DNA of 64,000 nucleotides, taken from the NCBI RefSeq assembly GCF_030177755.1, contig NZ_CP126539.1:644001-708000 (forward strand). The letters run 5' to 3'. Below the pieces are notes generated by a model. The model was not told the origin of the DNA. It searched no databases and worked only from the letters and a program-made list of their open reading frames with translations. The first letter of the stretch is position 1. Each line of letters opens with the position of its first letter. Position numbers and translations under genes: made by a program. Positions 1-26,332 of this stretch are shown here, in pieces. The DNA comes from Devosia sp. RR2S18. Lineage in GTDB: Bacteria; Pseudomonadota; Alphaproteobacteria; Rhizobiales; Devosiaceae.

Positions 1-2845
1 ATGCATTCAACCGATCGCATGCGCCGATGATATCTGCCGCATTCACTTCATGTACTCGCCAGCGCTCGAGGATGGCTTCCGCGCGCTCGAGACGAGCGGA
101 AGCGCCAGGGGTTGAGGTATCCGATGCGAAGATAGCATGAACGGCTTCACCTACCCGCTGCATGTCAGGGGCGCCAGTAACTGGGACGCGCGAGCCGAGT
201 TCAACTCGCTCAACAACTTGATAAATTCTGTCCGACGAGTCCGTGCTTGGTCGCCGATGCAGCGCGGGACGCGTGACTGTCGTGCGCTCTGGACGTACAA
301 AGCTCGGACGTTTTGCCCGGCTAACCAGCTCACTGGGGGGTGGAGCATCGACCACTGCTGGGAACTGATGCGTTCCGGCTTGGATGTGTTCTCCTCCTGG
401 CACAGGTAGCTGCAGGTGCGGTCCTGCTCCGGTGTCAAGCACGCTCAACCACTCAAGCTTTCCGCCATCCGGCGGGGCGAAGCACAGGTAGTCGCGAGCT
501 CTGGTAACTCCGACGTATAGTAAGCGCGTGTCCTCTTCTTGCGCTCTTTGTAGTGACGCCTTGCCAAGCTCCGAGTTCAGGGAGGTTACGTCGAGATGAA
601 CGTTCTTGCTCTGACTGCCGTACGGCCAAGGCCAGAAGCGAATCCATCGCCCTGCCAGTGGATTCTTCCAGTCGATCTCACTCTCGGCTTCCGCCACGGG
701 CTCGAACAGGCGAGGCTTCGGCGCCTGGTGTAGGCCAGTAAGGATCACAAACGGCCACTCCAAACCTTTTGCGCCGTGGTAGGTCATGAGCTTCACAGCA
801 TCACCTTGACGGCTTTTGGGCCGCTGTGGATTTTCCGAGGCAAGCCAGAGAATGAACGCTGAAGGCGTGGCAGGCACGCCAGAGGCTGCACAACCAGCTT
901 CGTAGGCGCGTGCGTATCCTCGTAGAGCTTCAAGATCGTCCAAGCGGGCGACGCAATCCCCCCAGCCCTCAATCTGTCTGAACACGGCAGGCAAGGCGAT
1001 GATGGCGTCCAGCAAATCAGCTGGTGTTAACGTCAGCAGTCTTTCTCGCAGTGCCGCCAGTTCTCCCGCGATCGGAACGGCCGCCGAGAGTGCTGCGTCA
1101 GCATCTTGGGCGCCTGCTGCTTGCAACCAGAGGTCAGATTGGGGATCTGCTGAGAAGTACCGGGCTAGCTCAGCCAGAGCGGCGCGGTCGCTCGGGTCGG
1201 CGGCCCATCGATATGCGGCCATGACGAGCTCCACTTGCGGAGTCCGCAAAAGCCCATCCAGCTCAACAGCGACTTTGAGACCGGCCTGACTCAGAGCCTT
1301 GGAAAGGCTGGCGAGATGAGCTTTTGTGCGGCAGAGGATCGCAACATCTCCTGCGGTTAGGGGCCGCATCGCTCCACTTTTGTCTGTCACCACAGTTCCA
1401 GCCTCGATGGCGGACTTCACGCCACTGGCGAGGGCTGCATGTTGTTCTTGGATATTCTTCCCTGCTAGCCACCACACCGAGAGCGGCGCCTTGTCAAAGC
1501 CGCCATCTCCTCGCGCCGCGCCTGCAAACGAATGCTCCTCGGGTGGCAGCCCCATAGCTGAGAAGGCGGGTTCAAATGCGGAGTTGGCGAACTCGATGAT
1601 CCCTTTGCGGCTGCGGTACGATGTTGCCAGCACATCACGAGCTGCGCTCGAGGAAGCCGCAACCCCTTCGAAAGCGGCCTGAGTCAGGGTGCAATCCGCA
1701 TTCCGAAACCCGTAGATTGCCTGCTTCGGATCACCCACCCAGGTGCTGGAGTCGACCAAATCCGCTAACGCAGTGAAGATCGAAATCTGCAGCGGACTAG
1801 AATCCTGAAATTCGTCAACGAAAACACAGCCGACCTTCTCCCGCAGCTGCTCTCGCATTTCGTTGTCCTGCAGAACCTCCAAGGCCAGCATTTCCTGATC
1901 CGTGAAATCCAGCAAACCCCGCTCGGATTTGTAGGTCTGAAAAGCGTCCAGTGCGTCGGCCGCGCACTCGAACAGCAAATCGATAAAGTCGCTGCACTGC
2001 TGGTGAAGGCGTGGGTGCTCAGGGTGACGACAAGCCGCCTGGGTCACATCACTCAAGGCGTCCAAAAACTCTGCTCCGTCCTTCTTTGCGCAACCTAGCT
2101 TGGAAAGCCGTGCCCAGTCGGACCAGCTGATTTGTCGGCCGGCTCGGAGCGCAGCGGCGGCTTGCCTGAGTGTTTCAAGTGTAGCAGCTCCAGTCTTAGA
2201 AACTTCCACGGGCGCACTGCTTAGAGCCTTGTGAACTGAAACGCTCAGGTCCCGATCATAAGCTTCAGCGGTCTGACCCGTAGGGTTTGTAAGCAAAGCC
2301 AGAAACGACTCCCGCGAAAGCTTGGCGGATCGCCCTAGATCAGCCGCGGAAATGCCGTTCGCACGAGCAAGTTCGATGATGCGGCGGACTGTCGAGCGCC
2401 AGTCGCTCCGATCCGCGGCCGACGGCAGCTTAGGGTCGGTATAGCCCAGTGCATCCGCCAGGGCGTTGAGCGATGGTGCGTGCTTCTCTATTGCTGCGTT
2501 CGCTGCGATCGCGAAAGTGCGCGTGACGCTCTCTTCCGGAATAATTTCGGCGCGTGGCGACCGCCCCAGATCGATAGCGAACTCGGAGACGATCTGCCCG
2601 CAGACCGAATTCACTGTACCGAAGCGTGCTCCTAGCAGACGAGCTGCCGCACCTGCGTTACCGCTCTTGAACAAGGCTGTTCGGGAACGCTCTATCAGCT
2701 CGTCGGCGGCCTTTACGGTGAACGTCGTTGCGATGATCTGTTCAGGATCGCGTCTGGCTACCTCCTGTACGATTGAGCCGACAATCCTGGTCGTCTTACC
2801 GGCGCCCGCCGATGCGACCACGGTCTGTATTTTGGTGTCGATCAT
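1..2845 (-). CDS. AddA/UvrD-like SF1A DNA helicase (partial, runs off the left edge)
   Basis: The reading frame is open from the ATG at 2845 to the window edge, giving about 948 codons; the C-terminus is missing. Superfamily 1A helicase motifs are in order: Walker A SAGAGKTT near residue 14, the Walker B type DEFQD near 344, GDPKQAIYGFR near 370, YHGAKGLEW near 688 and YVGVTRARDYL near 774. This is the UvrD/PcrA/AddA pattern, so the protein should translocate on single-stranded DNA using ATP. It begins 2 nt after the stop of the AddB-like gene, which points to a translationally coupled AddAB-type helicase-nuclease pair. Whether it carries its own C-terminal nuclease domain, as AddA does, cannot be seen here. 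The setting in an accessory island suggests a defence or DNA-processing role rather than housekeeping recombination (inference). Confidence 0.9.
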   Translation of the reverse strand, partial: MIDTKIQTVVASAGAGKTTRIVGSIVQEVARRDPEQIIATTFTVKAADELIERSRTALFKSGNAGAAARLLGARFGTVNSVCGQIVSEFAIDLGRSPRAEIIPEESVTRTFAIAANAAIEKHAPSLNALADALGYTDPKLPSAADRSDWRSTVRRIIELARANGISAADLGRSAKLSRESFLALLTNPTGQTAEAYDRDLSVSVHKALSSAPVEVSKTGAATLETLRQAAAALRAGRQISWSDWARLSKLGCAKKDGAEFLDALSDVTQAACRHPEHPRLHQQCSDFIDLLFECAADALDAFQTYKSERGLLDFTDQEMLALEVLQDNEMREQLREKVGCVFVDEFQDSSPLQISIFTALADLVDSSTWVGDPKQAIYGFRNADCTLTQAAFEGVAASSSAARDVLATSYRSRKGIIEFANSAFEPAFSAMGLPPEEHSFAGAARGDGGFDKAPLSVWWLAGKNIQEQHAALASGVKSAIEAGTVVTDKSGAMRPLTAGDVAILCRTKAHLASLSKALSQAGLKVAVELDGLLRTPQVELVMAAYRWAADPSDRAALAELARYFSADPQSDLWLQAAGAQDADAALSAAVPIAGELAALRERLLTLTPADLLDAIIALPAVFRQIEGWGDCVARLDDLEALRGYARAYEAGCAASGVPATPSAFILWLASENPQRPKSRQGDAVKLMTYHGAKGLEWPFVILTGLHQAPKPRLFEPVAEAESEIDWKNPLAGRWIRFWPWPYGSQSKNVHLDVTSLNSELGKASLQRAQEEDTRLLYVGVTRARDYLCFAPPDGGKLEWLSVLDTGAGPHLQLPVPGGEHIQAGTHQFPAVVDAPPPSELVSRAKRPSFVRPERTTVTRPALHRRPSTDSSDRIYQVVERVELGSRVPVTGAPDMQRVGEAVHAIFASDTSTPGASARLERAEAILERWRVHEVNAADIIGACDRLNA

Positions 2846-2847
2846 GT

Positions 2848-5544
2848 TCAGGCCTCCTCAACGCCTATGCGACAGAGACGAGTAAGCTCACAGTACCGGC
2901 ATGGCTCGTCCGTGGGCACTACAGCGAGGTTCGGCGGGAGATGCTCAGCAGCATCTGCAGCACCCGCCGTCAGTGCGATCCCATTTCCAGCGAAGGAGAG
3001 CCATGTCTGCCAAGTAGATAGCAGATCGTCCCAGGTTTCCTCCAGGGTTCGGCGGCCCGTAACTTCCTCGTCAGCTACCAAGGCTCCTTCCAGGCCGATA
3101 AGGCGCCTTTGATTCAACAGGTAGTAAGCACCTGCAGCCCGCCCACCCTCAGCATCGGCCATGACACCATAGGCGGCCAGCTGGAGCGCGCGACCTTCTG
3201 AGAGCTCGGTACGACGACGACGCGCGCTCTTGCTCCACTTGAGATCGATGACGCCCAACCCGCGTGTGTGATGGCGAACCAGGAGATCGATACGACCGCG
3301 GATTGCCAGCTCCGCGCTCAAGCTTTTTGCGCAGTCGATCTCGGTCCCTACTACCTCGAAGTTCTTGTCAGCCAACCAGCGAGCCAGATGCAGGATCGCT
3401 TCTGGAACACGCGCACGAGCAGCAACAAGTTCAGCGGCAAGTTCTGGTTGCTGTAGCGGAGCGGCTACAACACTAAGCAGATCGTCAAAATGCCATGAGA
3501 TCTCGGCTTCCAGTGCGCTCGAAACGACAATCGGGCCCGGTTGAAATACGCGCCTAGCAACCTCATGAGCCAGATTGCCGATAAGCTGGTCTGGTCCGGG
3601 TAGCTCTGCGAAGCGCCCCCCCGAGAGTCTCAGCACATCTGAGAGAAGCCAGCGAAGTTGGCAGTCCACAAGGCGCTCAAGCGTTGTTGCACTTTCCACG
3701 CGCCCTTGAAGCTTCGAAAGAATGGTTGGGGGGAGCTCCCATTTGGCTCTGGCTTGGGGAATAGGGAGGATCGAAATCTCGGCGCGAGAAAGAGTCCTTC
3801 TGCCCACCGCATGGCTCGGCCCTCGAAGCAGCTCCTCTGCGTTCCATGTCACCAGACGTCCGGCAGCGCCAAGGAGAGGCTGCAGCTGATGGGCAAGCGG
3901 GTGGCTTGTAGTTTCTTGACCTGCACTAAGGGTAGATCGAACGAACATCAGCTGACGCCCTGCCATTTGCACGGCATTGGCGTAGCTGCTCGAGATACGA
4001 TTTGCCGCTTGGCTTGCAGGCTCCAGTTCGCATCCGGCAGCTTGCAACGCCTCAGTTTCTGATCGAGTCCACGGGTGCATGGGAACCCCATCGCCCGGTC
4101 CCTTGAAGTCCCACCAGACGATTCTTTCTGCACGGTCCCAAACTGCAGCTGGACTTGTCACAGCCCGGAGACCACCGGCCGTTGCAAACTGCTCTGGATT
4201 GGCCGCCCCATTGGCCATTACCTGCTCCAGGATCCGCTCTATGAGCAATGCAGGCAGGAAATCCTCGGCAAGTGCGTCGACAGCCTCAATGAAGGTGCTT
4301 GCTGTTCCCATGGCTGCCCGCAGGATCGGATCGCCCTCACTGGCGTCCGTTTCCGCCGCCCACTGAGCCACGCGCGCCGCTATCGAGCGCGCGGCTTCTA
4401 CGGGAATTCCCTCTTGGCGATCATAGAGGCCACCTTGCGTCCAGTCACGCCACCGGCTGACCCGCTTTTCCACCTCGGCTTCCGGAGCTGCCTTTTCTGA
4501 AAAGCGATCCAAAAGGTCGGCTCGTATCTTCTCCCAGGCAGCATTCCAGACCGGACCTCCCGCTCCCGGTTCCTGGATCAATGCGCGGGCAAGTCTGCGA
4601 GCAGCAGAACGCCCGATTGGTGGGCGGGGCAAGAGAAGCAGATCAAGCAAGGGCTTGGGATTGAACGGCCTCCAGACCGCTGCGAAGGCGAGTGGAAGAA
4701 TCTGAAGAGCTCCGCGGTACGGAGACGAGAGCGAATGACCGAGCTTCGGTAAACCCCTGGCAGCCAGAGCCTCATCGAGGAGTGCCGTATCACCGCTGGT
4801 ATCGATTACCACGGTCCCTGAGAGTTCTTCTTCAGGTCCAGCAGCCAGCCAATCAGCAAGAGCCTCTGCCGCCATGAGCGAAGTGTCTGCTTCGATCAGG
4901 ATCGCCGTCCCATCACCGACTAGAACGTCCGCGCAGCCGCCCTCAAGAAAGTGCTGCACCCGATCAAGGTCGGTACCATGGTGATCCGAGCTTGGCAGCT
5001 TTCTGCCTTCGATCTTGGTGCCGCAGGCTTCAAGAGCATCCAGGAGCCGCCCCCAGACTGGAGGCAAAGATTGCCGCTCTTCGACTGTGGTGATGGATGT
5101 AATTGAGAGCTGCGGCTTTCCCTTCAGCGCTTCAAGGGCATCGAAAAGCCGATCACCACTGCCCTTGGCCACGGCCTCGCCGGAACGTTCGACCAGCGCG
5201 ATCTCATCAAGCCGCTTAAGCCCGGTTGAGATGGGTCGCCAGCCTCCGGTTACGAGTTGGTCCCGATAGTTCAGGAGGCTTTTTGCCGTTGCAAAAGGGT
5301 CTCGAGAGAACGATGCGGCGAAGAAGCAATTAGGCTTCACTGATAGTGCTGCGCGCAGCTTGGTCGCATATTCCGCTATCCGCACGGCAACAGCTGCAGC
5401 AGGTGCAGTCAGACCCAATTCGAGTTCCAGCGTTGCGAGCAGCCCACTGGGGCCCACCACGTCAGCGCAGATAGCGCCGGCACCCGAACCGGGGAAGTCG
5501 GGGTAAACCGCACCATCGCAGTGCAGACCGAAAACCAATTCCAT
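2848..5544 (-). CDS. AddB-like protein with C-terminal PD-(D/E)XK nuclease and probable Fe-S cluster
   Basis: About 898 aa from the ATG at 5544. A GTG at 5619, overlapping the upstream gene, would add 25 residues. The C-terminal part has a RecB/AddB-type nuclease core: GRIDLLVR, then VIDLKWSKS near residue 765, then LQLAAYG. A closing cysteine set, CRYCELTRLC near 884, pairs with a single upstream Cys in VDCQLRWLL near 625; this is the four-cysteine arrangement that holds the AddB iron-sulfur cluster. The middle resembles an inactivated helicase, since I see no Walker A motif. It lies between the tandem AAA+ gene and the AddA-like helicase on one leftward operon. Partner and substrate (broken or invading duplex DNA) are inferred from the family. 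Confidence 0.85.
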   Translation of the reverse strand: MELVFGLHCDGAVYPDFPGSGAGAICADVVGPSGLLATLELELGLTAPAAAVAVRIAEYATKLRAALSVKPNCFFAASFSRDPFATAKSLLNYRDQLVTGGWRPISTGLKRLDEIALVERSGEAVAKGSGDRLFDALEALKGKPQLSITSITTVEERQSLPPVWGRLLDALEACGTKIEGRKLPSSDHHGTDLDRVQHFLEGGCADVLVGDGTAILIEADTSLMAAEALADWLAAGPEEELSGTVVIDTSGDTALLDEALAARGLPKLGHSLSSPYRGALQILPLAFAAVWRPFNPKPLLDLLLLPRPPIGRSAARRLARALIQEPGAGGPVWNAAWEKIRADLLDRFSEKAAPEAEVEKRVSRWRDWTQGGLYDRQEGIPVEAARSIAARVAQWAAETDASEGDPILRAAMGTASTFIEAVDALAEDFLPALLIERILEQVMANGAANPEQFATAGGLRAVTSPAAVWDRAERIVWWDFKGPGDGVPMHPWTRSETEALQAAGCELEPASQAANRISSSYANAVQMAGRQLMFVRSTLSAGQETTSHPLAHQLQPLLGAAGRLVTWNAEELLRGPSHAVGRRTLSRAEISILPIPQARAKWELPPTILSKLQGRVESATTLERLVDCQLRWLLSDVLRLSGGRFAELPGPDQLIGNLAHEVARRVFQPGPIVVSSALEAEISWHFDDLLSVVAAPLQQPELAAELVAARARVPEAILHLARWLADKNFEVVGTEIDCAKSLSAELAIRGRIDLLVRHHTRGLGVIDLKWSKSARRRRTELSEGRALQLAAYGVMADAEGGRAAGAYYLLNQRRLIGLEGALVADEEVTGRRTLEETWDDLLSTWQTWLSFAGNGIALTAGAADAAEHLPPNLAVVPTDEPCRYCELTRLCRIGVEEA

Positions 5545-5602
5545 AGCTGTTCCCGAAGCAATTTCAGTGAATGAGCTCCCGAAGCCCTTAAGACTTCGTT
5601 TA

Positions 5603-7696
5603 CTATAGCGAGGCACCAAACCCGACGGGGCGGCTTAAGCTGGTCTGTTTCAGCGAGATTTCATGAGCCAGCATCGACACCAGCTCCAGCGGCTCCAGGG
5701 AGCCAAATACTTCAGCCTTGCGTCGGACGAGTGCAAAGTCTCCGGGGGTTAGTGGATGGAGCTGGGCAAGGCTTTGCGGCGCAACACACCCGAAGTGTGC
5801 CTCGAACGCGCGCGCGGCCTGCTCTTTGCTCATCGGTCCGAACGTCACCTTGAAGAGAAAGCGGCGCATCGTTGCGGGGTCCAAATGGTCAACGTAGTTC
5901 GTCGTTGCGGCAAATGGGCTCGGATGACGCTCCATCCACGTCAGCATCTCGTTTACTTGGCTGACCTCCCAGGAACGCTGAGAGTTTCGGCGGTCCGCGA
6001 GCAGCGAATCCACCTCATCCATAATAAGGAACAACCTGCGATCCGCTGCTTCTTCGAAGGCCTCGGCGATGCGCTTCTCGGACTCCCCTACATACATGCC
6101 AAGAAGATCCGAACCCCTTTTCTCCAGGACATCCAGGCCCAAAGAGAGGGCCAGGTGACGGGCGTAAGCGCTTTTGCCCGTCCCCGGAGCCCCGGAGAAC
6201 AGAAAGGTAAACGGACCAGGTCCTACAGCTTGAACTCTGCGGGTCAGCAGGGACAAGTTTGTGTCTGCTGAGGATTGCTCAGTGTCGAATGGCACCTTTC
6301 CTGGAGCAAGCTCCGGCGCTTGCCGGCGCCCCATGGCCTTCAGAAGCGACTTTGACGAGGCTATTGCGAAGTCTGCTCCGCCACTGGCTAGGCGCGAAGC
6401 TTTCAGACCTGCCTCAATCAGCGCAGGCGGTGCCTGCAGAGAGGCAAGCCGAACTGTCTCCTCATCCGTTAGCCGCAACGACTGGGCATCGGCAAGGCGC
6501 TCAACGATGCGCTGTCTTGAAGATTGGTCCGGCTCCTCGAATGCGACCGCATGTAGCATGCGCCTCAAGATCGATTGGCCCAGCCTCTCCGGAAAATTGC
6601 TGATCCAGATCGTTGGAACCGGGCAACTTTCCACGATGCGGTTCATGAACACTTTGGAACCGGACCGGTTTGAGAATTCCTGGTCATCAATACCGTTGAA
6701 AATGTCGTCGGCTTCGTCGATCACCAGGATGACGCGGCCGATACGGTCCGCGAGCGATGACAGAAGCGAAAGGTGCGCAACTCGATCAGCTCGGCTGGGT
6801 TCAGCTTCGCGATTGCCTGTTTCCCCGACGAAAACCACGTGTGCTTTGAGCTCTCGCCCTAACAAGCGAGCGAATTCCGTTTTTCCTGTCCCTGGAGCCC
6901 CGTAAAAGAGAACGCCCGCTCCCCGGGCCTTCTCTTTGAGCGCACCCCCAATAATATCAAGAACCTGCTGGCGGCCCTGACCAAGGTGCTGAAAATCGCA
7001 GAGTTCCAATGACGTCTCGGCAGGCTTGCCCAAGAGCGCTGCAGTCAATGCTGCTTCCTTGGTGGATCGCTGTGCGAGAACCCTTAGAAGCGTTCGAGAA
7101 GCTGCGAAGTCGCCCCCGCCTCGATTTTCGATTAGGCCGAGTTGGCTTAGTGGCGCATGGGCGCTGAAGATATTGGTTTCAGCACGACGCAGACCACAGA
7201 CCCGCAGTAGGGTTCGGCTGCTTACCTCATCGCTACTTGGATCTTCACCTGAGTACGCTTCGCGCAATTGCTGGAAAGCATCTATATGGGTCAGGCGTAC
7301 CAGCGCACCCACTATCATTGCCTCCCGCCGAGGCAGTTGTAGGGTTTGCGAAACCCAGTCGAGGCGTTTCTGAAAGGAAGATTTCGCAGGAACGCTGCGG
7401 TACGCAGAGGCGATCTGCGAGCGGGGAACTCGGATCACCGTTTCACAAAAATGCTCGCGTTTTGCGCTGTCAGACAATTCGTCGAGCGCTTCAATGGCCA
7501 AGTTGAGCGGCTTGCGGTGGCTTTGGTACCAATCGACGAAATCTGCAGGTAGGCTTACACGAGTGCGGCCCTTCTCCGGGCTGAGAACCGCAAGCGCATA
7601 GGCACGAAGTTGGTACTTCTCGAAGGAACCGAAAGGGACATCTAGAACGTCAGGGATCTCTTGGTGATCGAAGCGGAATACCTGGGATGGCTGCAT
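5603..7696 (-). CDS. Tandem AAA+ ATPase (two complete AAA modules)
   Basis: This 697-aa protein has an N-terminal region of about 240 residues that I do not recognise, followed by two Cdc48/FtsH-type AAA modules. The first has Walker A GAPGTGKTEF near residue 265 and Walker B VILVIDEADDI near 321. The second has GAPGTGKSAYA near 499 and LFLIMDEVDSLL near 553. Both modules look catalytically complete, including downstream arginine-rich segments (ILRRMLH, TMRRFLFK) where arginine fingers would be expected. It sits directly upstream of the AddB-like gene (58 nt to the preferred ATG, or a 17-nt overlap if that gene starts at its GTG), so the two are probably cotranscribed. A role as an unfoldase or remodeller acting with the AddAB-like pair is inference. 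I do not know a named family for the full architecture. Confidence 0.85.
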   Translation of the reverse strand: MQPSQVFRFDHQEIPDVLDVPFGSFEKYQLRAYALAVLSPEKGRTRVSLPADFVDWYQSHRKPLNLAIEALDELSDSAKREHFCETVIRVPRSQIASAYRSVPAKSSFQKRLDWVSQTLQLPRREAMIVGALVRLTHIDAFQQLREAYSGEDPSSDEVSSRTLLRVCGLRRAETNIFSAHAPLSQLGLIENRGGGDFAASRTLLRVLAQRSTKEAALTAALLGKPAETSLELCDFQHLGQGRQQVLDIIGGALKEKARGAGVLFYGAPGTGKTEFARLLGRELKAHVVFVGETGNREAEPSRADRVAHLSLLSSLADRIGRVILVIDEADDIFNGIDDQEFSNRSGSKVFMNRIVESCPVPTIWISNFPERLGQSILRRMLHAVAFEEPDQSSRQRIVERLADAQSLRLTDEETVRLASLQAPPALIEAGLKASRLASGGADFAIASSKSLLKAMGRRQAPELAPGKVPFDTEQSSADTNLSLLTRRVQAVGPGPFTFLFSGAPGTGKSAYARHLALSLGLDVLEKRGSDLLGMYVGESEKRIAEAFEEAADRRLFLIMDEVDSLLADRRNSQRSWEVSQVNEMLTWMERHPSPFAATTNYVDHLDPATMRRFLFKVTFGPMSKEQAARAFEAHFGCVAPQSLAQLHPLTPGDFALVRRKAEVFGSLEPLELVSMLAHEISLKQTSLSRPVGFGASL

Positions 7697-7752
7697 ATTG
7701 ATCCTGTGGGGCTAAGTGGTGCTCTGATTAGGGCCGGGCTAGTCCAGGTCGT

Positions 7753-8031
7753 TCACAGCATGAGGCGCTTCAGCCGCTTGGCGCAGGTGACCAAGGTGCC
7801 TTCGTCGCCCACCACCACGTAAGTATTGAAGCTGCTCTCAATTCTGGCGAATGCCTTGACGCCCAGGCCATCCTTCGCCCGAGCACGAGCCTTTTTGTCC
7901 ATGAAGACAAGTTCCGCGCCGCCACGGCGTCGATAGCTGCCGTAGGTGATCAGCGCGTCCAAGGCCTCAGCCTTGAGGCCTCTCTGCCTGATACGTGCCT
8001 GCGCATGAACGCTGATCTGAATGTCTTCCAC
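7753..8031 (-). CDS. Small DUF4258-like protein
   Basis: A 92-aa protein starting at a GTG (8031) on the leftward arm, 56 nt before the tandem AAA+ gene. It begins with a pattern of the type seen in DUF4258 proteins: VHAQARIRQRG, followed by a predicted helix and YGSYRRRGG, then a basic stretch KKARARAKDG. The C-terminus is a beta-rich segment (NTYVVVGDEGTLVTCAKRL). DUF4258 proteins are structurally related to small RelE/BrnT-like ribonucleases and are sometimes found in toxin-antitoxin or defence contexts, but no activity can be assigned here. It could be the first gene of the leftward operon. The family call rests on the motif pattern alone. Confidence 0.6.
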   Translation of the reverse strand: MEDIQISVHAQARIRQRGLKAEALDALITYGSYRRRGGAELVFMDKKARARAKDGLGVKAFARIESSFNTYVVVGDEGTLVTCAKRLKRLML

Positions 8032-8120
8032 TACTCGGCCTCCCTCGACTGCGTGTTGGGAGAAACTTAACCCGGTCCGACGACAAAATCGGTCGCCCCT
8101 GCTCGGGCTTGGAAGTTTGG
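8032..8120. promoter_or_regulatory. Divergent promoter region between the two arms of the island
   Basis: These 89 bases separate the outward-pointing leftward operon and the WYL regulator gene, so promoters for both arms should lie here. I did not find convincing -35/-10 boxes or a clear palindrome. The WYL protein encoded next to it is the obvious candidate regulator of both directions (inference from position). Confidence 0.35.
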
Positions 8121-18513: not shown

Positions 18514-19909
18514 GCGCAAATCGCCCGCTCAAGGCCTTTGGATCTGGTTGGTGGCCGGCCTGGGGATCTTGGTACTCTGCCTCAACCTCTTTGTGTTCAT
18601 TCTGATTCAGAGCAACCAGCGTGCGATGGATGCTCGCGAAACGGAAGTGCTAAGGCGTGAGCAGCAAGCCGACCTTCTGCTGCAACAGCGCCAGGGGCTT
18701 CTATCTGAGATCGATCAACTCAAAGCTAACCGCGAGGAAGCTGCAGCGGCCAGCACTGACGCGGAGCGGATAAAGCGAGAACGGGATCAGGCGCTCCAAG
18801 CTCTCAATCAGGCGCAGGACGCGAGTGACAGTGCAAACCGCCAAATGAGGGCGGCTGTCGCAGATCGCGACGATGCTAGGGCGGAGCGGGATGCTCTAAG
18901 TGCAGAAGTGGAAGCGCTTGCCCGTGAACGGCAGGCGGTCGAGGAGCAGCTCGTTCCGCTGAGAACTGAGAAGGCAAACCTTGACCGCTCGATAGGAGAG
19001 GCTCGTATCCAGGAGAGGGAAGCCGAAGACGCAGCAGAATCTGCTCAAGAGACATTGGCGAGGTTGACTACCGAGGTAGCCGAGCTACAGGAGCGAGCGG
19101 GGCGGCTCTCCACCCAGGCTGAAGCGTCTCGGCGCAGCATGGAGGAGGCGCAGACTAGAAGTGCCGCAGCTTCCGAAGCAGAAGCTGCCGCGACAGAAGC
19201 TGCTGAGCAGGCCGAGGCCAGGGCTGAGGGCGCTCAGCAACGGGCTGATGATGCGCGAGAACGAGCTGTAGCATCCGAAACGCGCGAGCGTGAAACTCGC
19301 CAGCGCATCTCTGACTTGCAGGCGCAGGAGACGACCCTTGGAGAGCAAGTTGCGGCGCTCAGCGAGGAGCAGGCGGCGCTTCAAGCTCGAGTTGAGGCTA
19401 GGTCCGAAGACTTGCAGGCTGATGAAGAGCGTGCTGCTGGACTCCAACAGCAAATACAGGGCTTGCAAGAAGAGTTGACTAGTGAGCGGGCAAGGTTGGC
19501 AGCTGTGCAAGAGAGAGCCGCTCTGACACAGTTCGACGAAGCCGCTGCCGCCGCCGCTCAGCAAGCTCGCGAAGCGGCGGAAGCCTCTCTGACGACCTTG
19601 CGTGCAGAATTAGATCTGCACCGACGAGAGCTCCAGCAGCTGCAGGCGGAACTTACTGCGGCTCGAGCGCTAGCAATACAACTTGCGGATGTGGAGCTCG
19701 AGTTGCGCAACGCGCAGGCGCAACTTGCAGAAGTAGAAGATCGCATCTTGCGCTCAGGGCAACAAGCTGCGGCTTCTGATGCGCGGAATAGCGGCGCCTC
19801 CGCCAGCATACCGGACCCGCAAGCGGAGACCGACTCTGTTAGTCCAGCTGCTGGCTCTCCCGATAGTGCCCCCTCTGCCGGCACGCATCCTGCTAACCTA
19901 CAACGATGA
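18464..19909 (+). CDS. Membrane-anchored long coiled-coil protein
   Basis: About 481 aa from the TTG at 18464, chosen because GGGGGG lies upstream and residue 1 then begins a short polar tail; an ATG at 18434 would add 10 residues. After a basic segment PSRRRKSPAQG there is one strong transmembrane helix (about residues 25-48). Residues 50 to 430 are an almost unbroken heptad-rich coiled coil full of Glu, Arg, Ala and Gln. The last 50 residues are disordered and rich in Ser, Pro and Ala. It overlaps the helicase-nuclease gene by 50 nt and the next gene by 4 nt, so all are coexpressed. No enzymatic motif is seen. A structural role, perhaps tethering or scaffolding the AAA+ partner at the inner membrane, is inference. 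Confidence 0.88.
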   Translation: MTESNENITSDERPSRRRKSPAQGLWIWLVAGLGILVLCLNLFVFILIQSNQRAMDARETEVLRREQQADLLLQQRQGLLSEIDQLKANREEAAAASTDAERIKRERDQALQALNQAQDASDSANRQMRAAVADRDDARAERDALSAEVEALARERQAVEEQLVPLRTEKANLDRSIGEARIQEREAEDAAESAQETLARLTTEVAELQERAGRLSTQAEASRRSMEEAQTRSAAASEAEAAATEAAEQAEARAEGAQQRADDARERAVASETRERETRQRISDLQAQETTLGEQVAALSEEQAALQARVEARSEDLQADEERAAGLQQQIQGLQEELTSERARLAAVQERAALTQFDEAAAAAAQQAREAAEASLTTLRAELDLHRRELQQLQAELTAARALAIQLADVELELRNAQAQLAEVEDRILRSGQQAAASDARNSGASASIPDPQAETDSVSPAAGSPDSAPSAGTHPANLQR

Positions 19910-21918
19910 TGGCCTCCATGGACGCTTCTACGCTGGTCTTACCAGCCCTCATTGCGCTTTCTCTTCTGGCTATCCTCACCTCCGCCATCGGAATCGTGTT
20001 CCAAATCCGCCGTGAGCGCCTACCCGACGCTACTCGCTACGAAAATGTTCGGGAGTTGCGCCAACAAGAGGAGCGCATTCTCGCAGAAAGGCGAGATGAA
20101 CTGAGCTTGGTCGAGCAGAAGATCCAAGAACGCGACAGGCTAATCGCTGAGGTGACTGCATACGAGGAGCGGATCCTTTCACTGCGTGCTGAGATGGACG
20201 ATCTCTCCTCAGCGCGCATGGACATCGACGCAGCCAGGCGGGAGGCCGCCGACGTCGCGGCAGAGTTAGCTGAGAAGCAGCAGCATCTAGCCGCACTTGA
20301 GGAAAAGCTCAGCGAACGTCAGCAGGCTTGGGATAGCATTGACCAAGAGAGAGAAGCCAAAGAACGCGCCGTTGAGCAGGCGGAGCGAAGACTAGAGGGT
20401 CTTGCTGCCGATATCGACCGTTTGGCGGCTGAACGGCTGGAACTTGACGGGCAGTTGGGGCCTCTCCGCGCTGAAAGAGAAATGGCCTTCAAGGCGCTGG
20501 AGGAAGCCCGTTTGATGGATGCACGGATCGCTGCACTCGCGGTGGAACAAGAGCGCCTCTTATCAGACATTGCAGATGCCTCGGCCCTGAAGGACGAAGC
20601 AGACAACGTTCGAGCTTCACTCACGCAGATGCGAGCTCAGGCCGCCAGTCTTGAAGAGGATGTGACAAGGCTCTCTGCGCTTCGGGCAAAACTCTCGGCG
20701 GAAACTGGCACTGAAGCTGGGCCAGCCAACGATCAAGCGTTGCTTGCCGATTTGCGGCAGCTACCGGGTTCGCTTGCTGAGCCAGCGATACTACGCGCGC
20801 GTAAGCGGGAGGAAGCGGATGCGCTTAGGGAGGTATCACTCTACCTTCGGGATCTTGGGCTCAAGTATCCTGACAGAGCCGTTAAGGCATTCCACACTGC
20901 GCTTAAGATCAATGACTATTCTCAGCTAACCGTTCTCGCGGGTGTTTCGGGAACCGGCAAGAGCCTCCTACCCCGCCGGTACGCGGAGGCTATGGGTATT
21001 CATTTCCTGCAGATTGCGGTCGAACCGCGATGGGATAGTCCTCAGGATCTTCTCGGCTTCTACAACTATGTAGAAAAGCGCTATAGGGCCACGGATCTCG
21101 CTCGAGTGCTTGTACAGCTGGATCCATTTGACACATCCGGGCTCTCTCAGGGGGACCGCGGCGACCACATGGCGCTTGTTCTCCTCGACGAGATGAACCT
21201 CGCACGAGTGGAGTATTACTTTTCAGAGTTCTTGAGCCGATTAGAAGCTCGGCCGCGCCAAGCTGAGGCGGACGATAGTACCAAGCGCAGTGACGCCCGC
21301 ATCCCGCTGGATATCAGAGGATTGAAGCAGCAACTCTCGCTCTTTCCGTCGCACAACATCCTTTTCGCCGGAACCATGAATGACGACGAGAGCACGCAGT
21401 CGCTTTCTGACAAGGTTTTGGACCGAAGCAACGTCATGCAGTTCGCGGCTCCCCGCAACTTCGAAAAACCACCCGCGGATGCAAGAGCACAGAGACCGGA
21501 AGAGGGTCAGAGCTTCACGCAGTGGCGCAGTTGGCTGCAGGCGCCCGACTCAATGAGTGATCAGCGACGCCGCCATCTCGATGGTCACATCGGGAAACTG
21601 GCAGAGATTATGGAACGCTGCGGTCGCCCGTTTGGGCACCGGCTAAGGGACGCAATGTTGGCTTACATTGCGAACTATCCAAAAGATCGAAATGGGCAAG
21701 GTGATGAGGCACCACTGGCCGATCAAATTGAGTATCGAATTCTCCCGAAGCTGCGTGGAGTCGATCTGGAAAGCCGTGGACAGGAGTTCGATGATCTTGA
21801 GCGTTTGCTCCGCGACTTGAGTGAACCCCAGTTTGCCGATCGCCTTGCTGATCTTCGCCAGCAGCAGGAGTCCGGAACAGGTCTTTTTGTCTGGCGGGGG
21901 CTCACTAGAGGCGAATGA
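19906..21918 (+). CDS. Membrane-anchored coiled-coil McrB-type AAA+ ATPase/GTPase (CnuB-like)
   Basis: This 670-aa protein has three parts. A transmembrane helix lies near residues 9-31 (LVLPALIALSLLAILTSAIG), followed by a long coiled coil at about 45-275. The C-terminal AAA+ domain has LAGVSGTGKSLL near 346, RWDSPQDLLGFYN near 370, Walker B MALVLLDEMNLARVE near 423, and ILFAGTMNDDESTQ with SDKVLDRSNV downstream. That last series (DEMN, GTMN, LDR) is the McrB/dynein-like AAA signature. McrB binds GTP and drives McrC cleavage. The following McrC-like gene overlaps by 4 nt, which supports an McrBC-type pair. Coiled coils fused to McrB define the CoCoNuT group as I remember it. Whether it uses GTP or ATP cannot be told from sequence. 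Confidence 0.9.
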   Translation: MMASMDASTLVLPALIALSLLAILTSAIGIVFQIRRERLPDATRYENVRELRQQEERILAERRDELSLVEQKIQERDRLIAEVTAYEERILSLRAEMDDLSSARMDIDAARREAADVAAELAEKQQHLAALEEKLSERQQAWDSIDQEREAKERAVEQAERRLEGLAADIDRLAAERLELDGQLGPLRAEREMAFKALEEARLMDARIAALAVEQERLLSDIADASALKDEADNVRASLTQMRAQAASLEEDVTRLSALRAKLSAETGTEAGPANDQALLADLRQLPGSLAEPAILRARKREEADALREVSLYLRDLGLKYPDRAVKAFHTALKINDYSQLTVLAGVSGTGKSLLPRRYAEAMGIHFLQIAVEPRWDSPQDLLGFYNYVEKRYRATDLARVLVQLDPFDTSGLSQGDRGDHMALVLLDEMNLARVEYYFSEFLSRLEARPRQAEADDSTKRSDARIPLDIRGLKQQLSLFPSHNILFAGTMNDDESTQSLSDKVLDRSNVMQFAAPRNFEKPPADARAQRPEEGQSFTQWRSWLQAPDSMSDQRRRHLDGHIGKLAEIMERCGRPFGHRLRDAMLAYIANYPKDRNGQGDEAPLADQIEYRILPKLRGVDLESRGQEFDDLERLLRDLSEPQFADRLADLRQQQESGTGLFVWRGLTRGE

Positions 21919-23498
21919 GGGCAGTTCCCGAAGTTTGGTTGCGGCCGTGGGCACTCGCTGAAGCAACTGGCAAGCATCGGCTCAGGATCCGCCCCGGAGA
22001 GTTGATCATTCCGGATGATCACCGTTCCTCCTTATGGTTGTTTGATCCCAACTCGGAGCACATCACAACGAGCACGCGGCTAGCAGGCTTGGCGCCGGTC
22101 GCAGGGTTCGGCCTGACGGGGCGCCCGAGAAGTCTTCATCTGCTACCAATGGCTCTTCGTCGTAATGCCCCCACGACGCTTGTAGGACCAATTGGGGAAA
22201 CCCAGATAATCTGGCTCAATGGCTATAGCCGTCCCCCAACTACATTAGAGCCCAAGACGCCGGCAGAAGTTGCCGCCCGTCATCTACTTCTAAGAGCCGA
22301 GTCGGTGTGGGACCGTCTCCGCGAGGTAGAGAATGCCATCGCGGACCCAGCCAATCTGTGGCAGGAGCTGCGACGGCGGTGGACAGAAGACACCGACGAA
22401 GCCGACCCGCGGATGGACGTTATCGTTCGTCAGGCGCTCGAACTTTCGCGCACATTGGACGAGCTCGATCGGTCTCCACGTCGTGTACTACGGCGTACGC
22501 ATGAAATGCTCCCCCTCGCCAGAGTGCAGGAGATGGACCGCCGCGCCATGAATTGGCTGGTTCGCCAACCTGGGGAAACACTTGCGGAACGTGCAGGCGA
22601 CGCTCAGCGCGTCCTGGCTGTGGTCCGGCGTGAAAACTTCGATACTCTCGAAAACCGAGTTGTAAGAGCCTATTCCGAACTTGCTGGTTTTGTGGCTCGT
22701 GACTACCTGGAACGCAACGCTCGAAAACGAGCAACTGGTCGGGCGCTCCGGGTAAAGGACTATGGCAAGCGCGTTAAGCGACTGTCGCGAGATTTCACCC
22801 AGCTAAATATCCGTTCAACCGAGCCCGGCGTAACCCCGAACTTCGTTCTTCAACAGAACCCGAGCTATCATGCCGTTTGGGAAGCATGGCAAGAGCTACT
22901 CGATCAAGATAAGCAGATTGATGACCTGTGGATATGGCAGGCCGCGTCTTGGGAAGAGTTCTGCGCCCTTGCGCTAAATGTAGCAATCGGGACGATCTCT
23001 GGGGCCAAACTAATTGCGTCTGCTCCTCTCATTTTCAGGGAGGAACAGCAGCAAGGGTCCTGGATTTCACACGACAACCCTCTGGGTGTATTCCATCTCC
23101 CAGACCATAAAGTCGTTGTTGAGGTGCAATTTCGTGTCGCCGAGCGCACAAGCGCACAGGCCGATCTCGGAACGCAGCTGTGGGTTCGCTTTGGACATAC
23201 TGACGATCCTGCTGGCTTCCACAAATACCTGCCGGTGTGGTGCTTGTGGGACGCCGCGGGCGGCCTGCCAAGGGGGGAAGTGACAGAAGTCGCTACCCTA
23301 ATCCAACGGTATCGGAGTGCCGGTGTGGTCGGCAGCCTAGTGATCCGTCCTGCTCCTCACGAGACCTTAGAAGTGGTCGAGGCAGAAGGCTCAGCCCTGG
23401 CGGTAAGCATGGCCTCTGAAGGACCAGGGTTGCGGGACGCGATCAATACCATCGCTCAGTTCATCATCAGCATGGTAGAGCGGGAGGTTAGCCGGTGA
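21915..23498 (+). CDS. McrC-like DUF2357-domain protein (predicted nuclease partner of the McrB-type ATPase)
   Basis: A 527-aa protein with an N-terminal beta-rich region, a central DUF2357-type segment (DTLENRVVRAYSELAGF near residue 243, then RALRVKDYGKRVKRL) and a C-terminal alpha/beta region with PDHKVVVEVQFRV near 395, followed by LWVRFGHTD. DUF2357 proteins are McrC relatives that usually end in a PD-(D/E)XK nuclease. Here the core reads D-x(n)-EVQ in place of the usual ExK, so catalytic competence is uncertain. It overlaps both neighbours by 4 nt (ATGA and GTGA junctions), meaning translation of the three is coupled. The association with the preceding AAA+ gene is the strongest argument for an McrBC-like complex. 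Target (modified DNA, RNA or translation machinery) is unknown. Confidence 0.85.
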   Translation: MRAVPEVWLRPWALAEATGKHRLRIRPGELIIPDDHRSSLWLFDPNSEHITTSTRLAGLAPVAGFGLTGRPRSLHLLPMALRRNAPTTLVGPIGETQIIWLNGYSRPPTTLEPKTPAEVAARHLLLRAESVWDRLREVENAIADPANLWQELRRRWTEDTDEADPRMDVIVRQALELSRTLDELDRSPRRVLRRTHEMLPLARVQEMDRRAMNWLVRQPGETLAERAGDAQRVLAVVRRENFDTLENRVVRAYSELAGFVARDYLERNARKRATGRALRVKDYGKRVKRLSRDFTQLNIRSTEPGVTPNFVLQQNPSYHAVWEAWQELLDQDKQIDDLWIWQAASWEEFCALALNVAIGTISGAKLIASAPLIFREEQQQGSWISHDNPLGVFHLPDHKVVVEVQFRVAERTSAQADLGTQLWVRFGHTDDPAGFHKYLPVWCLWDAAGGLPRGEVTEVATLIQRYRSAGVVGSLVIRPAPHETLEVVEAEGSALAVSMASEGPGLRDAINTIAQFIISMVEREVSR

Positions 23499-25897
23499 GG
23501 CGCTGGCTCGGCATCGACATCAACGGTTGGCGCGATACCTCGGCGAGAGACTGGGAGCCAGACACCTCGGGGGCTCTGCTCGCGGAGATTAAGGTGCTCC
23601 AGGGCGGCGTGGAAGGTGTAGCCGTAAAAGGGCAAAGCGGCGATTGGGTGGGTGGCCCACAGGCCTTGTTGTCGCCTCATGGCAGAGGAGCCGGTTGGGG
23701 TCGTGTAGGCGCTTCCGAACGCAGGCTTCTAGTGAGAGAACTCTGGAACGAACTTGTCGCGGGAGCCTCTGCAGGTGACTGGCCAGCTTGGTACGCAGCC
23801 GTTGAGGCTCTGTCGAAGAGCGCCCAATCCATTGTGGTCAACGTACCAGATTCACCCGAATTCGAAGAGGGCGCTCAATCTCGGGTCTTACAGTCACTCC
23901 GCGGGCGAAAGCGCGCTCGGCCAATATTGCTTTGGCGCTCTGTCGCGCTGTTCTTAGAGGCTTTTGCTCAAGGGCGAATACCTCGATCTGCCGAAAAAAC
24001 GGCTACTACGGTGCTTGTCCACGCCGAGAGGGGCATAGAAGTTCAAAAGCTCACCCTCCGGCAGGTGGACGGCTATGCAGACCACTTCGCCCCGGAACGG
24101 GATGGCTATGGGGAAACGCTCTTCTCGGAGTTGGGACTGGACGCTCTACGGGGTCGACTTCTGGCCGAGACACTAGCTCTAAACGACGAACTCAGAGACT
24201 CTCGCGCCGAACAAACCCGTCTGCCAGCTCGACTGCTGTTTGGAGAGGCTTGCCCAGGCGACAGAGAAATCTTGAGAAGAAACAATGGTACCTGGATGGA
24301 GGTGCTTGCGCCTGCACTGCCAGCTGACTTGTTGCCCGAGCCGACCGAGGAAGTTCCACCACGCTGGGTAAGCGAGAGGACCCTGTTAGCCACCCCCCTT
24401 GAGCCACAACTAGCAACTACCCTTGCTAGGAAACTTGAGCCTCATTTCCCCGGCCTTGAGCTTGTCTCTTGGGAGTTCTTGTCGCGTGGGGCGCTTCGCG
24501 CTGGGCGTTTGATTGAAAGAGGCCTTCCACACTATCTTGATCATCTCACACCGATAAGCTTGGCAGTTCTGGAGCATGCGGGGCCAACCTTCCGCAGCCT
24601 GATGCCGGCAACTGCGACTGTTCCAGCGAACCGAGAGTACGTCTCCGACCCAATAACGGGGCATCGTTGGGGCCGCGGCAAAGACCGGATCGATTTCTTT
24701 GTCCTGAAAGGAGCTTCCGAGGTACGCCATTGGACCGTTTCGGTCTCCGAGCCGCCCGAGCACGACGTTGGTGTAGAGCTCACTCTCAAGCAGACACCTG
24801 GACAGAGTTGGGCCAAGCTATCTCTGCTTTCAAAGGACTGGCCCGAACTTCAGCCGATCGAGCTGGAGTGGGATCGCTTAGATCCGGACCAGCGCACTCC
24901 TGAAGAGGTTCTCGAGGCACTCGAGCGGCCGGCCCCTATCATCCCCAACAGGATTGTGGAGGACGCGCATGCAGCAGCTTGGGAAGATGATGCGCGATCG
25001 CCCGGACTGGCTTCGGTGCTGGCTACTGCGTCTAAGGATAAGTCAATCCAGCTTAAGCCGCTCGCGGATGCGATTAGGCGAAGCAAGTGGTTGCCGCAAT
25101 ACGGCCGCAGCTTCAGAACTATCAGCACTGATGGCCATGTGCCTGAAGGCGTTCCAGAAGAAGCAACAGGAAAGTTGGATGCTGCGTTGGCAACCGTGGG
25201 GGACGCCGTCTTGGCGGTTGCGGAAGGACGTCGGTCACCGTTCAAAAACAACACTGCTCTTCTATTCACCACTTGGGCTTTCGGCCGCTGTCCCATAGCT
25301 GTGCAAGAGCAGTTGGTCGCAGCACTGGAGCAGGAGCAGTGTGGGGCCTTCAATCCACTATTGTCCGCCCCTAGATCCAAAACCGTGATCATAGCTGGGG
25401 CGGGGCGTGCAGTAGAGGATGTCGACTTAATTGCGCGCCTGATATCCACCTTGGCGCAGCGGCAGATGAGCAGCACAGTGCTGGGGGCACTGTCTTCTGT
25501 TCTGTCGAGGCGAGCTAGAGCGCCTTATGCGCTTTCCTCCGAGCTTGTCGATGACATAGCAGAGAAGCTCGTGGGAGTACTGCAGGAGCTCAAAACTCAG
25601 CAGAGCTTTCATATAAAGTTCAAGAACACGCTTCTGAGTTTTTCGGGGCTATTGAGGTACCGTGAAGTCGAGCCCTGGGCGCTGGTTCGCGACCGCTCAG
25701 TGCTAGCTGACCAAGCGGCGCAAACGCTTGAGCAGATCAGGGCGACTTTGGAACATCGGCAAAGTCGAATACCCCAGGGGGCAAAGAAGCTGGGAATTGT
25801 CTCTGAGTTGATCGAGCTTCTCTCCGGACAAGGGGGGGACCCCAACATCCTTAGACACATCGATGAACTGAGTGAGGACGGTCCTGAGGAATTCTAG
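23495..25897 (+). CDS. 800-aa protein of unknown function with a possible degenerate actin/Hsp70-like N-terminus
   Basis: It starts at a GTG that overlaps the McrC-like stop. The first residues RRWLGIDINGW resemble the phosphate-1 loop of the actin/Hsp70 superfamily. ARPILLWRSVALFLEAFA near residue 140 and TTVLVHAERGIEVQKLTL near 170 are where a second phosphate-type strand would be expected, but the Asp and Gly residues that bind nucleotide are poorly kept. From about residue 350 on I see beta-rich then helical regions with no motif that I recognise. Hsp70-like proteins are reported partners of type III CoCoNuT systems, as I recall, and that fits this position. The actin-like reading is weak and would need a structure-based comparison. 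Confidence 0.8.
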   Translation: MRRWLGIDINGWRDTSARDWEPDTSGALLAEIKVLQGGVEGVAVKGQSGDWVGGPQALLSPHGRGAGWGRVGASERRLLVRELWNELVAGASAGDWPAWYAAVEALSKSAQSIVVNVPDSPEFEEGAQSRVLQSLRGRKRARPILLWRSVALFLEAFAQGRIPRSAEKTATTVLVHAERGIEVQKLTLRQVDGYADHFAPERDGYGETLFSELGLDALRGRLLAETLALNDELRDSRAEQTRLPARLLFGEACPGDREILRRNNGTWMEVLAPALPADLLPEPTEEVPPRWVSERTLLATPLEPQLATTLARKLEPHFPGLELVSWEFLSRGALRAGRLIERGLPHYLDHLTPISLAVLEHAGPTFRSLMPATATVPANREYVSDPITGHRWGRGKDRIDFFVLKGASEVRHWTVSVSEPPEHDVGVELTLKQTPGQSWAKLSLLSKDWPELQPIELEWDRLDPDQRTPEEVLEALERPAPIIPNRIVEDAHAAAWEDDARSPGLASVLATASKDKSIQLKPLADAIRRSKWLPQYGRSFRTISTDGHVPEGVPEEATGKLDAALATVGDAVLAVAEGRRSPFKNNTALLFTTWAFGRCPIAVQEQLVAALEQEQCGAFNPLLSAPRSKTVIIAGAGRAVEDVDLIARLISTLAQRQMSSTVLGALSSVLSRRARAPYALSSELVDDIAEKLVGVLQELKTQQSFHIKFKNTLLSFSGLLRYREVEPWALVRDRSVLADQAAQTLEQIRATLEHRQSRIPQGAKKLGIVSELIELLSGQGGDPNILRHIDELSEDGPEEF

Positions 25898-25933
25898 CCA
25901 TGCAACGCATTGGCGCTATTTGGGAGATGTGAA

Positions 25934-26332
25934 ATGCCGAATACCAGCCTTCGGATCCAACGGCTCGCGGAGTTCAGAACGCGCTTACAAGACCGAGACG
26001 ATTTCGGGGAATTGAATTCAACCCCCGGCAGCCCCGCATATGTGAGCTTAGGCGATACGGGGCGTGACTTTATTGAAATGGCTTACGAGGCGGGATGGGT
26101 TGAGCAAGACTTCCATTGGATGGAGTGGAACGGAACTGCCGAAGCCGCGCGGTTAAACCGCCTGGAAGGGGTGAGAACAGCGACAGAGACGGAGATGGCC
26201 AGAGTGCTGACGGCGTTAATTAGGGGTGATCGCTTCAATGAAGGGCTGCTGCTAGGCGCCTTTCAAACTGGTTTGCTGACCGCCCTTTCAGAACGGGCCG
26301 CAGTGTTGGACGCCGAGCAGTGTTCAAAGTAG
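25934..26332 (+). CDS. DUF6508-like small protein
   Basis: 132 aa from the ATG at 25934, preceded by GGGAGA. The sequence has the pattern I associate with DUF6508: RTRLQDRDDFGELN, YVSLGDTGRDFIEMAYEAGW, then VLTALIRGDRFNEGLLLGAF and TGLLTALSERA. DUF6508 has no assigned activity and appears often in accessory or defence loci. It is the last gene of the rightward arm; the IS630 element begins only a few bases after its stop codon, so any further gene of this operon may have been cut off. Short, soluble and without catalytic motifs; a ligand-sensing or regulatory accessory role is only a guess. Confidence 0.7.
   Translation: MPNTSLRIQRLAEFRTRLQDRDDFGELNSTPGSPAYVSLGDTGRDFIEMAYEAGWVEQDFHWMEWNGTAEAARLNRLEGVRTATETEMARVLTALIRGDRFNEGLLLGAFQTGLLTALSERAAVLDAEQCSK

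Follow-up and report, generated by a model that had tools for sequence, protein, structure and literature searches.

The locus described here, positions 1-26332 of a 64,000-nt stretch of DNA (hereafter the window, C1:644001-708000) from the 3.97-Mb single-contig genome of Devosia sp. RR2S18, resembles in its parts several described defence systems. One of these is Azaca, which was reportedly first described in Millman et al. 2022 and which is a row of an A protein (ZacA, DUF6361), a PLD nuclease (ZacB) and a helicase (ZacC) without a methyltransferase. Another is the Type III-B CoCoNuT, which according to the parts of Bell et al. 2024 (PMC11090510) that were compared occurs mostly in Alphaproteobacteria and has a Vsr nuclease fused to a UPF1-like helicase; its other parts are a stand-alone coiled-coil protein, a McrB-like GTPase that carries both a coiled coil and an NxD motif, a McrC-like protein whose nuclease is inactive and, as CnuD, a separate Hsp70-like plus HEAT protein. 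DISARM, in part according to PMC12458937, is built on DrmA/DrmB (DUF1998) and a methyltransferase. We consider it fairly probable, judging from sequence, that the Devosia locus holds two neighbouring defence systems, a Type III-B CoCoNuT (15364-25897) and a methylation-free nuclease-helicase cassette (window -388 to 14844) that is coupled to an accessory AddAB-like pair. The CoCoNuT is of an already described type and the AddAB coupling is the new part; the main new observation is that AddAB-like pairs recur beside trios made up of an A protein, a PLD-superfamily nuclease and a SNF2-type helicase (A-PLD-SNF2 trios).

AddAB-like pairs beside PLD-SNF2 trios

When a profile made from 25 relatives of g05, the first gene of the trio in the window, was searched, 26 genome loci (L003-L028) were found, and g05, PLD and SNF2 were in a row in 25 of them, with g05 incomplete or split in some (L020, L023); L026 stops inside g05 at a contig end. 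Of these 26 loci, 21 have an AddA-like gene close to the trio and 19 an AddB-like one, L007 and L009 breaking off in AddA. Counted by stop-to-stop frames, AddA and g05 adjoin or overlap in 17 of the 21, with no more than 186 bases between their ends. The pair was placed upstream on the same strand, downstream (L003), divergently as in the window (L021), or upstream with WYL and AAA+ genes between (L024), and was absent from L020, L022, L025, L026 and L027. A tandem AAA+ gene was near the trio in 11 of the 26 genome loci and in all five plasmid loci viewed for PLD, and a WYL gene was found by tblastn in nine of the 26; besides these, L025 has a WYL domain and L027 gave a weak match. An ADP-ribosylglycohydrolase protein was in the AddAB-trio row of six of the 26 loci, fused to a phosphatase domain in L016. 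Within the family of the host, the g05 search gave one other genome among 136, which is of the same genus (G483, the place of Devosia sp. YR412). In a distant cassette of Limnohabitans (L025:6660-9735), which lacks AddAB, g05 is preceded by a WYL gene, a C-terminal piece of RecG/Fic-like kind and a DUF2779 protein with a Cas4-like PADLOC match, and this DUF2779 protein is perhaps another nuclease in the AddAB slot.

On plasmids, five of the seven records with a PLD match were viewed, as were all four CnuD records, nine of the 26 AddB records and, of the 19 AAA2 records, four beyond the five already seen as PLD records. The conjugative plasmid pBMJM1_5 of Leisingera carries in one row AAA, WYL, ADP-ribosylglycohydrolase, AddB, AddA, g05, PLD and helicase genes; pRsa of Fuscovulum has the same type of row plus HEPN, and profile matches gave AAA2, WYL, AddAB and the trio on a plasmid of Paracoccus versutus. 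The row was found without AddAB on the Pantoea At-9b plasmid (ATPase, WYL, g05-like, PLD and SNF2, flanked by metabolic genes) and on the plasmid of Desulfosarcina BuS5, from another phylum (a divergent WYL, then AAA, g05-like, PLD and helicase). In the four of these plasmid records that are annotated (Leisingera, Fuscovulum, Pantoea and Desulfosarcina), the core row contains no gene annotated as a methyltransferase. The trio was not seen in the four additional AAA2 records (L084-L087); one of these, a Croceicoccus plasmid (L084:9596-14504), has a tandem AAA+ relative with DUF6508, HEPN, WGR and a small PD-(D/E)XK gene, and the tandem AAA+ thus also serves other gene rows.

AddAB was also found beside Azaca itself. 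On a Methylocystis parvus plasmid (L082) Azaca (ZacA 2e-84, ZacB 1.9e-120, ZacC 6.4e-265) is directly upstream of an AddAB pair of the window type with one small gene between them. ZacA matches were present in seven of 385 genomes of the class, six of them strong, and in none of 14 control genomes. Twelve Azaca loci were viewed, each having 5 kb or more of flanking sequence on one side and the plasmid ones chosen with preference for Alphaproteobacteria, and AddB-AddA was near Azaca in seven of these 12, or six of 11 when L082, which had been found via its AddB, is left out; by origin these are seven of the 10 alphaproteobacterial loci and neither of the two others. AddAB is directly upstream of ZacA in L100, L101 and L109-L111, the row in L109 being WYL, AddB, AddA, ZacA, ZacB and ZacC, and in L112 it is divergent with a toxin-antitoxin pair between; AddAB was not found in L113, L114, L115, G060 (L105/L108) and G065 (L107). 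Also recurring close to AddAB pairs, whether Azaca is there or not, are ThiF modules, some of them accompanied by multiubiquitin and DUF6527 or DUF6791 genes (L110:320-2665, L111:287-2626, L100:895-2085, L081, L083, L089 and L092).

The pair in the window is like AddAB/RecBCD in having a UvrD helicase-nuclease and a PD-(D/E)XK partner with the catalytic motifs intact. The AddA gene runs past the window edge to genome position 643612, so that the full protein has 1077 amino acids, and its RecB-type nuclease motif (RID...VIDHK) lies outside the window. The housekeeping AddAB of the host is encoded elsewhere (C1:103011-109384) and its scores exceed the curated cut-offs, with 826 bits for AddB and 1033 bits for AddA (106052-109384), whereas AddA of the window scored 127 bits against addA_alphas, for which the cut-off is 861, and AddB of the window gave no match to addB_alphas. 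Matches to addA_alphas under the cut-off are common, as 12 of 14 control genomes had a match and one was above the cut-off. By these comparisons the window pair is an accessory one that is distinct from the housekeeping copy.

AddA of the window is related over most of its length to AddA of the other cassettes (227 bits, 3e-70, with a profile made without the window). Three AddB groups can be told apart, one of the window and Methylocystis, one of the g05 type and one of the Azaca type, which gave no full-length alignment and weak local matches with one another, and the AddA proteins are 25-30% identical across the groups. The plain reading is that AddAB-like pairs from three lineages came to stand next to A-PLD-SNF2 trios, and it is conceivable instead that AddB diverged fast within one old AddAB-trio pairing. 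That AddAB has been exchanged is shown by the window, with a g05 trio, and Methylocystis, with Azaca, which share one AddAB lineage over two types of trio.

The distance matrices of the trio genes correlated with r of 0.98-0.99, those of AddA and AddB with 0.98 and those of AAA and WYL with 0.94. AAA/WYL and the trio gave r of 0.53-0.57 (permutation p 0.0005-0.006), and r of AAA/WYL with the trio and AddAB was 0.53-0.65 overall. Fifteen near-duplicate loci were omitted from this test (L006-L013, L016-L018, L020, L023, L028 and L058); the similar pairs L003-L060 (92-94%) and L015-L019 (89-90%) were kept, and the label shuffles ignore common descent. From this pattern we therefore distinguish three submodules, the trio, AddAB and AAA-WYL, of which AddAB is exchanged most freely. 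The arm with AddAB and AAA+ and the arm with WYL, g05, PLD and SNF2, whose co-occurrence the first-pass annotation of this DNA had proposed to check, belong together with that reservation.

The CoCoNuT arm and the layout of the locus

Open reading frames and Pfam, PADLOC and NCBIfam scans gave 13 genes within 1-26332 and not the fourteen counted in the first-pass annotation (Table 1). These scans bore out its two divergent arms with a WYL regulator where they part, the defence-gene character of the array and the domain classes, namely UvrD-like, PD-(D/E)XK_1, two-module AAA+, WYL, SNF2-type, UPF1-like with MTES_1575/DUF559, AAA_5/McrB-like and DUF2357; PLD and SNF2, which it had described as one module, are both present as two separate genes. 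Its statement that a methyltransferase is lacking holds for the 13 genes by the Pfam scans, but about 8 kb to the left of the AddA end, at genome 629083-635404 (L002:1083-7404), there are three open reading frames that by eye, without a family scan, resemble Type I restriction-modification (HsdM/S/R).

Table 1. Genes of the cassette and of the CoCoNuT arm (window coordinates)
Gene	Position	Strand	Product	Matches
AddA-like	1..2845 (continues left of window)	-	UvrD/REP SF1A helicase with RecB-type PD-(D/E)XK nuclease	PF00580/PF13361
AddB-like	2848..5619	-	PD-(D/E)XK nuclease; D...DxK site, CxxCx5C motif	PF12705 8e-25
Tandem AAA+	5603..7696	-	Two-module AAA+ ATPase, both Walker A/B pairs intact; cassette core gene	PF00004
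WYL	8109..9128	+	WYL/WCX transcription factor, predicted DriD-like and activated by single-stranded DNA; core gene	PF13280/PF25583
g05	9283..10503	+	406-aa protein of unknown fold, first gene of conserved trio	No Pfam/PADLOC/PDB match
PLD	10500..12290	+	PLD-superfamily nuclease, two HxK...(S/T)xN half-sites; ZacB-like over part only	PADLOC ZacB 5.8e-8
SNF2	12292..14844	+	SNF2-type SF2 helicase; motifs DEVGMGKT, DEAHK, QQIGRVDR	PF04851/PF00271/PF00176
CnuH	15364..18513	+	UPF1-like SF1 helicase, C-terminal Vsr/DUF559 nuclease	PF13086/PF13087, PF18741, PF04480
CnuA	18464..19909	+	N-terminal transmembrane helix and long coiled coil	Hydropathy 2.87; otherwise weak coiled-coil-type matches
CnuB	19906..21918	+	Transmembrane helix, coiled coil, McrB-like GTPase with NxD (GTMNDDES)	PF07728, PDC-M26A 3.7e-37
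CnuC	21915..23498	+	DUF2357, degenerate PD-(D/E)XK site (x-V-Q instead of x-x-K)	PF09823
CnuD candidate	23495..25897	+	Position and length as in Hsp70-like CnuD; putative assignment	

In Pfam, PADLOC and PDB g05 had no match, and in NCBIfam none above cut-off; one NCBIfam match far under the cut-off (15 bits of 273) and a BrxC match in PADLOC at E 0.038 for one of its 25 relatives were taken as chance. Among the candidates scored g05 has 100 homologues. The PLD protein has no Pfam family and no match in a PDB sequence search, and its assignment is based on the partial ZacB match and the two half-sites, which are present in 15 of the 16 homologues listed (near-duplicates omitted), L064 having one half-site. 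The best PDB matches of the WYL protein include 9pfq (1.3e-53) and 8tp8 (1.5e-53), the latter being DriD with single-stranded DNA according to PMC11804915.

The first-pass annotation had pointed to type III CoCoNuTs, and parts of one were indeed found in the order CnuH-CnuA-CnuB-CnuC-CnuD-like. By its predicted domains this arm is a Type III-B CoCoNuT, a further member of the described type, in which CnuD is putative. The same order was found in Devosia YR412, Yoonia, Rhizobium tropici (with CnuH shortened at the N-terminus), R. leguminosarum and Sinorhizobium meliloti, the last two rows being near-copies (CnuB 98%). Like the published type, in the parts of PMC11090510 compared, it has a CnuH with UPF1 and Vsr domains, a separate CnuA, an NxD coiled-coil CnuB, an inactive CnuC and a protein of CnuD length, and it is from an alphaproteobacterium. 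CnuH keeps the EVDG motif in six of six homologues, and its N-terminus looks winged-helix-turn-helix-like by eye, Pfam giving no match there. CnuA is a separate coiled-coil protein that apart from the transmembrane helix has no other recognisable domain. CnuB has coiled-coil-type matches and its NxD motif is kept in six of six loci. In CnuC the lysine of D/E-x-K is absent and x-V-Q is at the position read as the nuclease site in seven of seven aligned homologues, including a Jannaschia fragment, because of which the possible fourth nuclease (McrC-like) suggested earlier is probably inactive. The CnuD gene is immediately 3' of CnuC in six of six loci and has 153 homologues among the candidates scored, and a PDB sequence search with it gave no match.

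A strong hydrophobic helix is present at the N-terminus of both CnuA and CnuB in six of six loci, with a best 19-residue hydropathy of 2.2-3.1 vs 1.2-2.0 in the other subunits, in agreement with the two membrane-anchored coiled-coil proteins that had been proposed. These helices are predicted to anchor the CoCoNuT in the inner membrane, which would place Type III-B CoCoNuTs there. In this respect the arm is unlike the published account, as none of the six passages of PMC11090510 that mention transmembrane helices is on III-B.

Two other memberships were rejected. ARMADA, which the first-pass annotation had named, does not apply, since domain scans found neither a YprA-like helicase with DUF1998 nor a PglX-like methyltransferase among the 13 genes, and what is shared with ARMADA, as far as the excerpt of PMC12458937 goes, is the SNF2/RapA-like helicase class alone. 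DISARM was rejected on the same absences, the DrmA/DrmD matches being of the generic helicase core only. The thirteenth gene (DUF6508, 25910-26332) was rejected as a part of the CoCoNuT, as in L057 and L062, two annotated III-B records, CnuD has no DUF6508 gene next to it. To its right, at window 26424-29003, transposase remains form the boundary of the array, an HTH_33-type open reading frame, which we take to be IS630-like, and one that by eye resembles an IS66 transposase. Directly beyond AddA, at genome 638768-642848 (L002:10768-14848), there are an inositol-phosphatase/ADP-ribosylglycohydrolase fusion, a metallo-beta-lactamase-fold protein and an unknown protein. Rfam at gathering scores gave no match anywhere in the window.

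Weighing of the alternatives

Several results weigh against a cassette to which AddAB and AAA-WYL belong in a fixed manner. AddB of the window was not detected by the profile of AddB from the other cassettes, from which we conclude that AddAB was exchanged and not co-inherited, and the distances of AddAB and the trio were not significantly correlated (r 0.14-0.17 with p about 0.25, or r 0.25-0.37 with p 0.07-0.16 when the window is left out). Relatives of the window-type AddB are in 26 plasmid records and in one other genome among 397 of the order (the host's own included), and eight of the nine plasmid contexts viewed are without an A-PLD-SNF2 trio and have instead WYL with a methylase and a restriction endonuclease, ThiF modules, CBASS and SIR2, with a PLD-family gene of another kind nearby in three (L081, L088 and L091); therefore they argue against a fixed tie of AddAB to PLD-SNF2. 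Relatives of the tandem AAA+ exist without the trio, one partial match being in a genome of the same genus that has no g05 (G463); the closest relative is that of Devosia sp. 919 (63%); and AAA+ and WYL were not seen in the eight of 26 loci that have BREX genes before AddB.

Two rival readings are the strongest: AddAB could be no more than a passenger in defence islands, or the trio could be a distant offshoot of Azaca. According to the former, the AddAB-like pair would be mobile cargo or a surplus enzyme of repair, with a tendency to land in defence islands and without a functional tie to PLD-SNF2. The AddAB distances, which do not follow those of the trio, and the window-type pairs, for which Methylocystis alone among the nine records viewed (of 26) has an adjoining trio, speak for it; the 21 of 26 g05 loci that have an AddA-like gene close to the trio, for the most part in a single row, the seven of 12 Azaca loci with AddAB (six of 11 without L082) and the three AddB lineages so placed make it unlikely, if by no means negligible. 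That the trio is simply a diverged Azaca is possible but on balance doubtful. The order of A protein, PLD and helicase is the same, the sizes are similar (about 400, 600 and 850-1000 amino acids), both kinds of trio are without a methyltransferase and are often near AddAB in the loci viewed, and there is similarity to ZacB (5.8e-8) and ZacC (2.3e-16), with hhalign giving 91% for SNF2-ZacC in the helicase core and 13% for PLD-ZacB across the HxK...SxN stretch. This similarity is partial, however, as PLD scored 30 bits to ZacB compared to 401 bits for the Methylocystis Azaca, and SNF2 scored 58 bits to ZacC, in the helicase core only, compared to 880 bits, so that neither match is full-length. 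The ZacA (DUF6361) model matched neither g05 nor any of the 25 rows in its alignment, g05 has no Pfam match, and g05 aligned with ZacA by hhalign no better than controls did (small alignments, low power), and on this comparison the trio was rejected as a member of Azaca. The cassette also differs in its extra tandem AAA+ and WYL genes, a WYL gene adjoining AddAB-Azaca in L109 and L101 as well.

That all 13 genes are one integrated composite machine, as the first-pass annotation had it, is improbable. CnuD matches were found in two of the 25 g05 genomes (Devosia YR412 and Yoonia, with L006 outside the 25) vs one of 385 genomes of the class, the host's own, a comparison that is not like for like as the class-wide search scored at most two candidates per genome among the matches shown and may miss distant relatives. 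The two systems are close in both, the CoCoNuT preceding the AAA+ gene by about 20 kb in Devosia YR412 and following SNF2 by about 0.5 kb in Yoonia; in the latter, however, it is in reverse, whereas in the window it follows SNF2 by 0.5 kb in the same direction, and order and orientation differ across all three genomes. The other 23 of the 25 g05 genomes gave no CnuD match, the III-B rows on three Rhizobium/Sinorhizobium plasmid records have no homologue of g05, PLD or SNF2 within 14-20 kb, and in the window the systems are separated by a 519-bp gap, in which a promoter and terminator scan gave nothing. Because each system occurs without the other and their arrangement varies where both occur, the single 26-kb machine was rejected; the CoCoNuT and the cassette share islands but move separately.

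A role of AddAB and the trio as an auxiliary nuclease set of BREX is very improbable. PglZ and BrxL of Type 1 BREX fill the slot directly upstream of AddB in eight of the 26 loci (families determined in L004 and the rest by similarity), and in Kaistia BrxC (to 9zdx, 4.3e-154) and PglX (to 8c45, 1.4e-230) are upstream of PglZ-BrxL. In these eight loci, however, PglZ, BrxL, AddB and AddA are 92-100% identical in eight genera, therefore they were counted as one recent spread, and the PglZ-BrxL-AddB-AddA-g05-PLD-SNF2 block (near-identical in L004, L006, L008, L010-L013 and L028) appears from this to be a recent mobile BREX-linked haplotype. Domain scans found no BREX gene among the 13 window genes, and section 35 of PMC12839542, the closest paper on BREX backup nucleases, names no AddAB and says nothing of the coupling to the cassette. 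BrxL of L004 ends in a PLD-like domain (PF16565). In Kaistia two open reading frames of about 200 amino acids precede BrxC/PglX at the place expected for BrxA/BrxB, and one of them matches 3bhw ('uncharacterized protein', 3.9e-8), which we take to be BrxA.

Proposed mechanism and significance

Starting from the domains and catalytic motifs, the conserved cassette and the AddAB-like pairs of several lineages that are found beside such cassettes, we tentatively propose a modular, methylation-free immunity of the kind 'cut, chew and report'. In such a scheme foreign DNA would be broken open by the SNF2 motor and the PLD nuclease, with g05 and the tandem AAA+ as their guide or gate. AddAB is known to load on DNA ends and to degrade DNA processively, and a dedicated AddAB, apparently drafted from at least three AddB lineages, would do so at the ends thus made. 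The single-stranded DNA produced may then activate the WYL factor, as its homology to DriD suggests, and raise expression in a feed-forward manner. The same might hold for Azaca.

Neither the AAA-WYL-g05-PLD-SNF2 cassette nor its coupling to AddAB was found described in the model libraries scanned (2023-2026) or in the passages available from the open-licence PMC literature. The cassette seems to be undescribed, and the combination of AddAB-like and tandem AAA+ genes, here with PLD-SNF2, stands as novel within these sources, as the first-pass annotation had supposed it might. For the CoCoNuT, the predicted inner-membrane site is a concrete lead on a system for which the parts of the literature examined gave no experiment. 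If the coupling of AddAB to the cassettes is functional, end-resection machines of the AddAB/RecBCD type would on more than one occasion have been recruited to serve restriction-like initiators as effectors, and Azaca-type systems would be linked to the degradation of DNA ends. It may also explain how these cassettes do without a methyltransferase, with a regulator that likely responds to single-stranded DNA at the centre.

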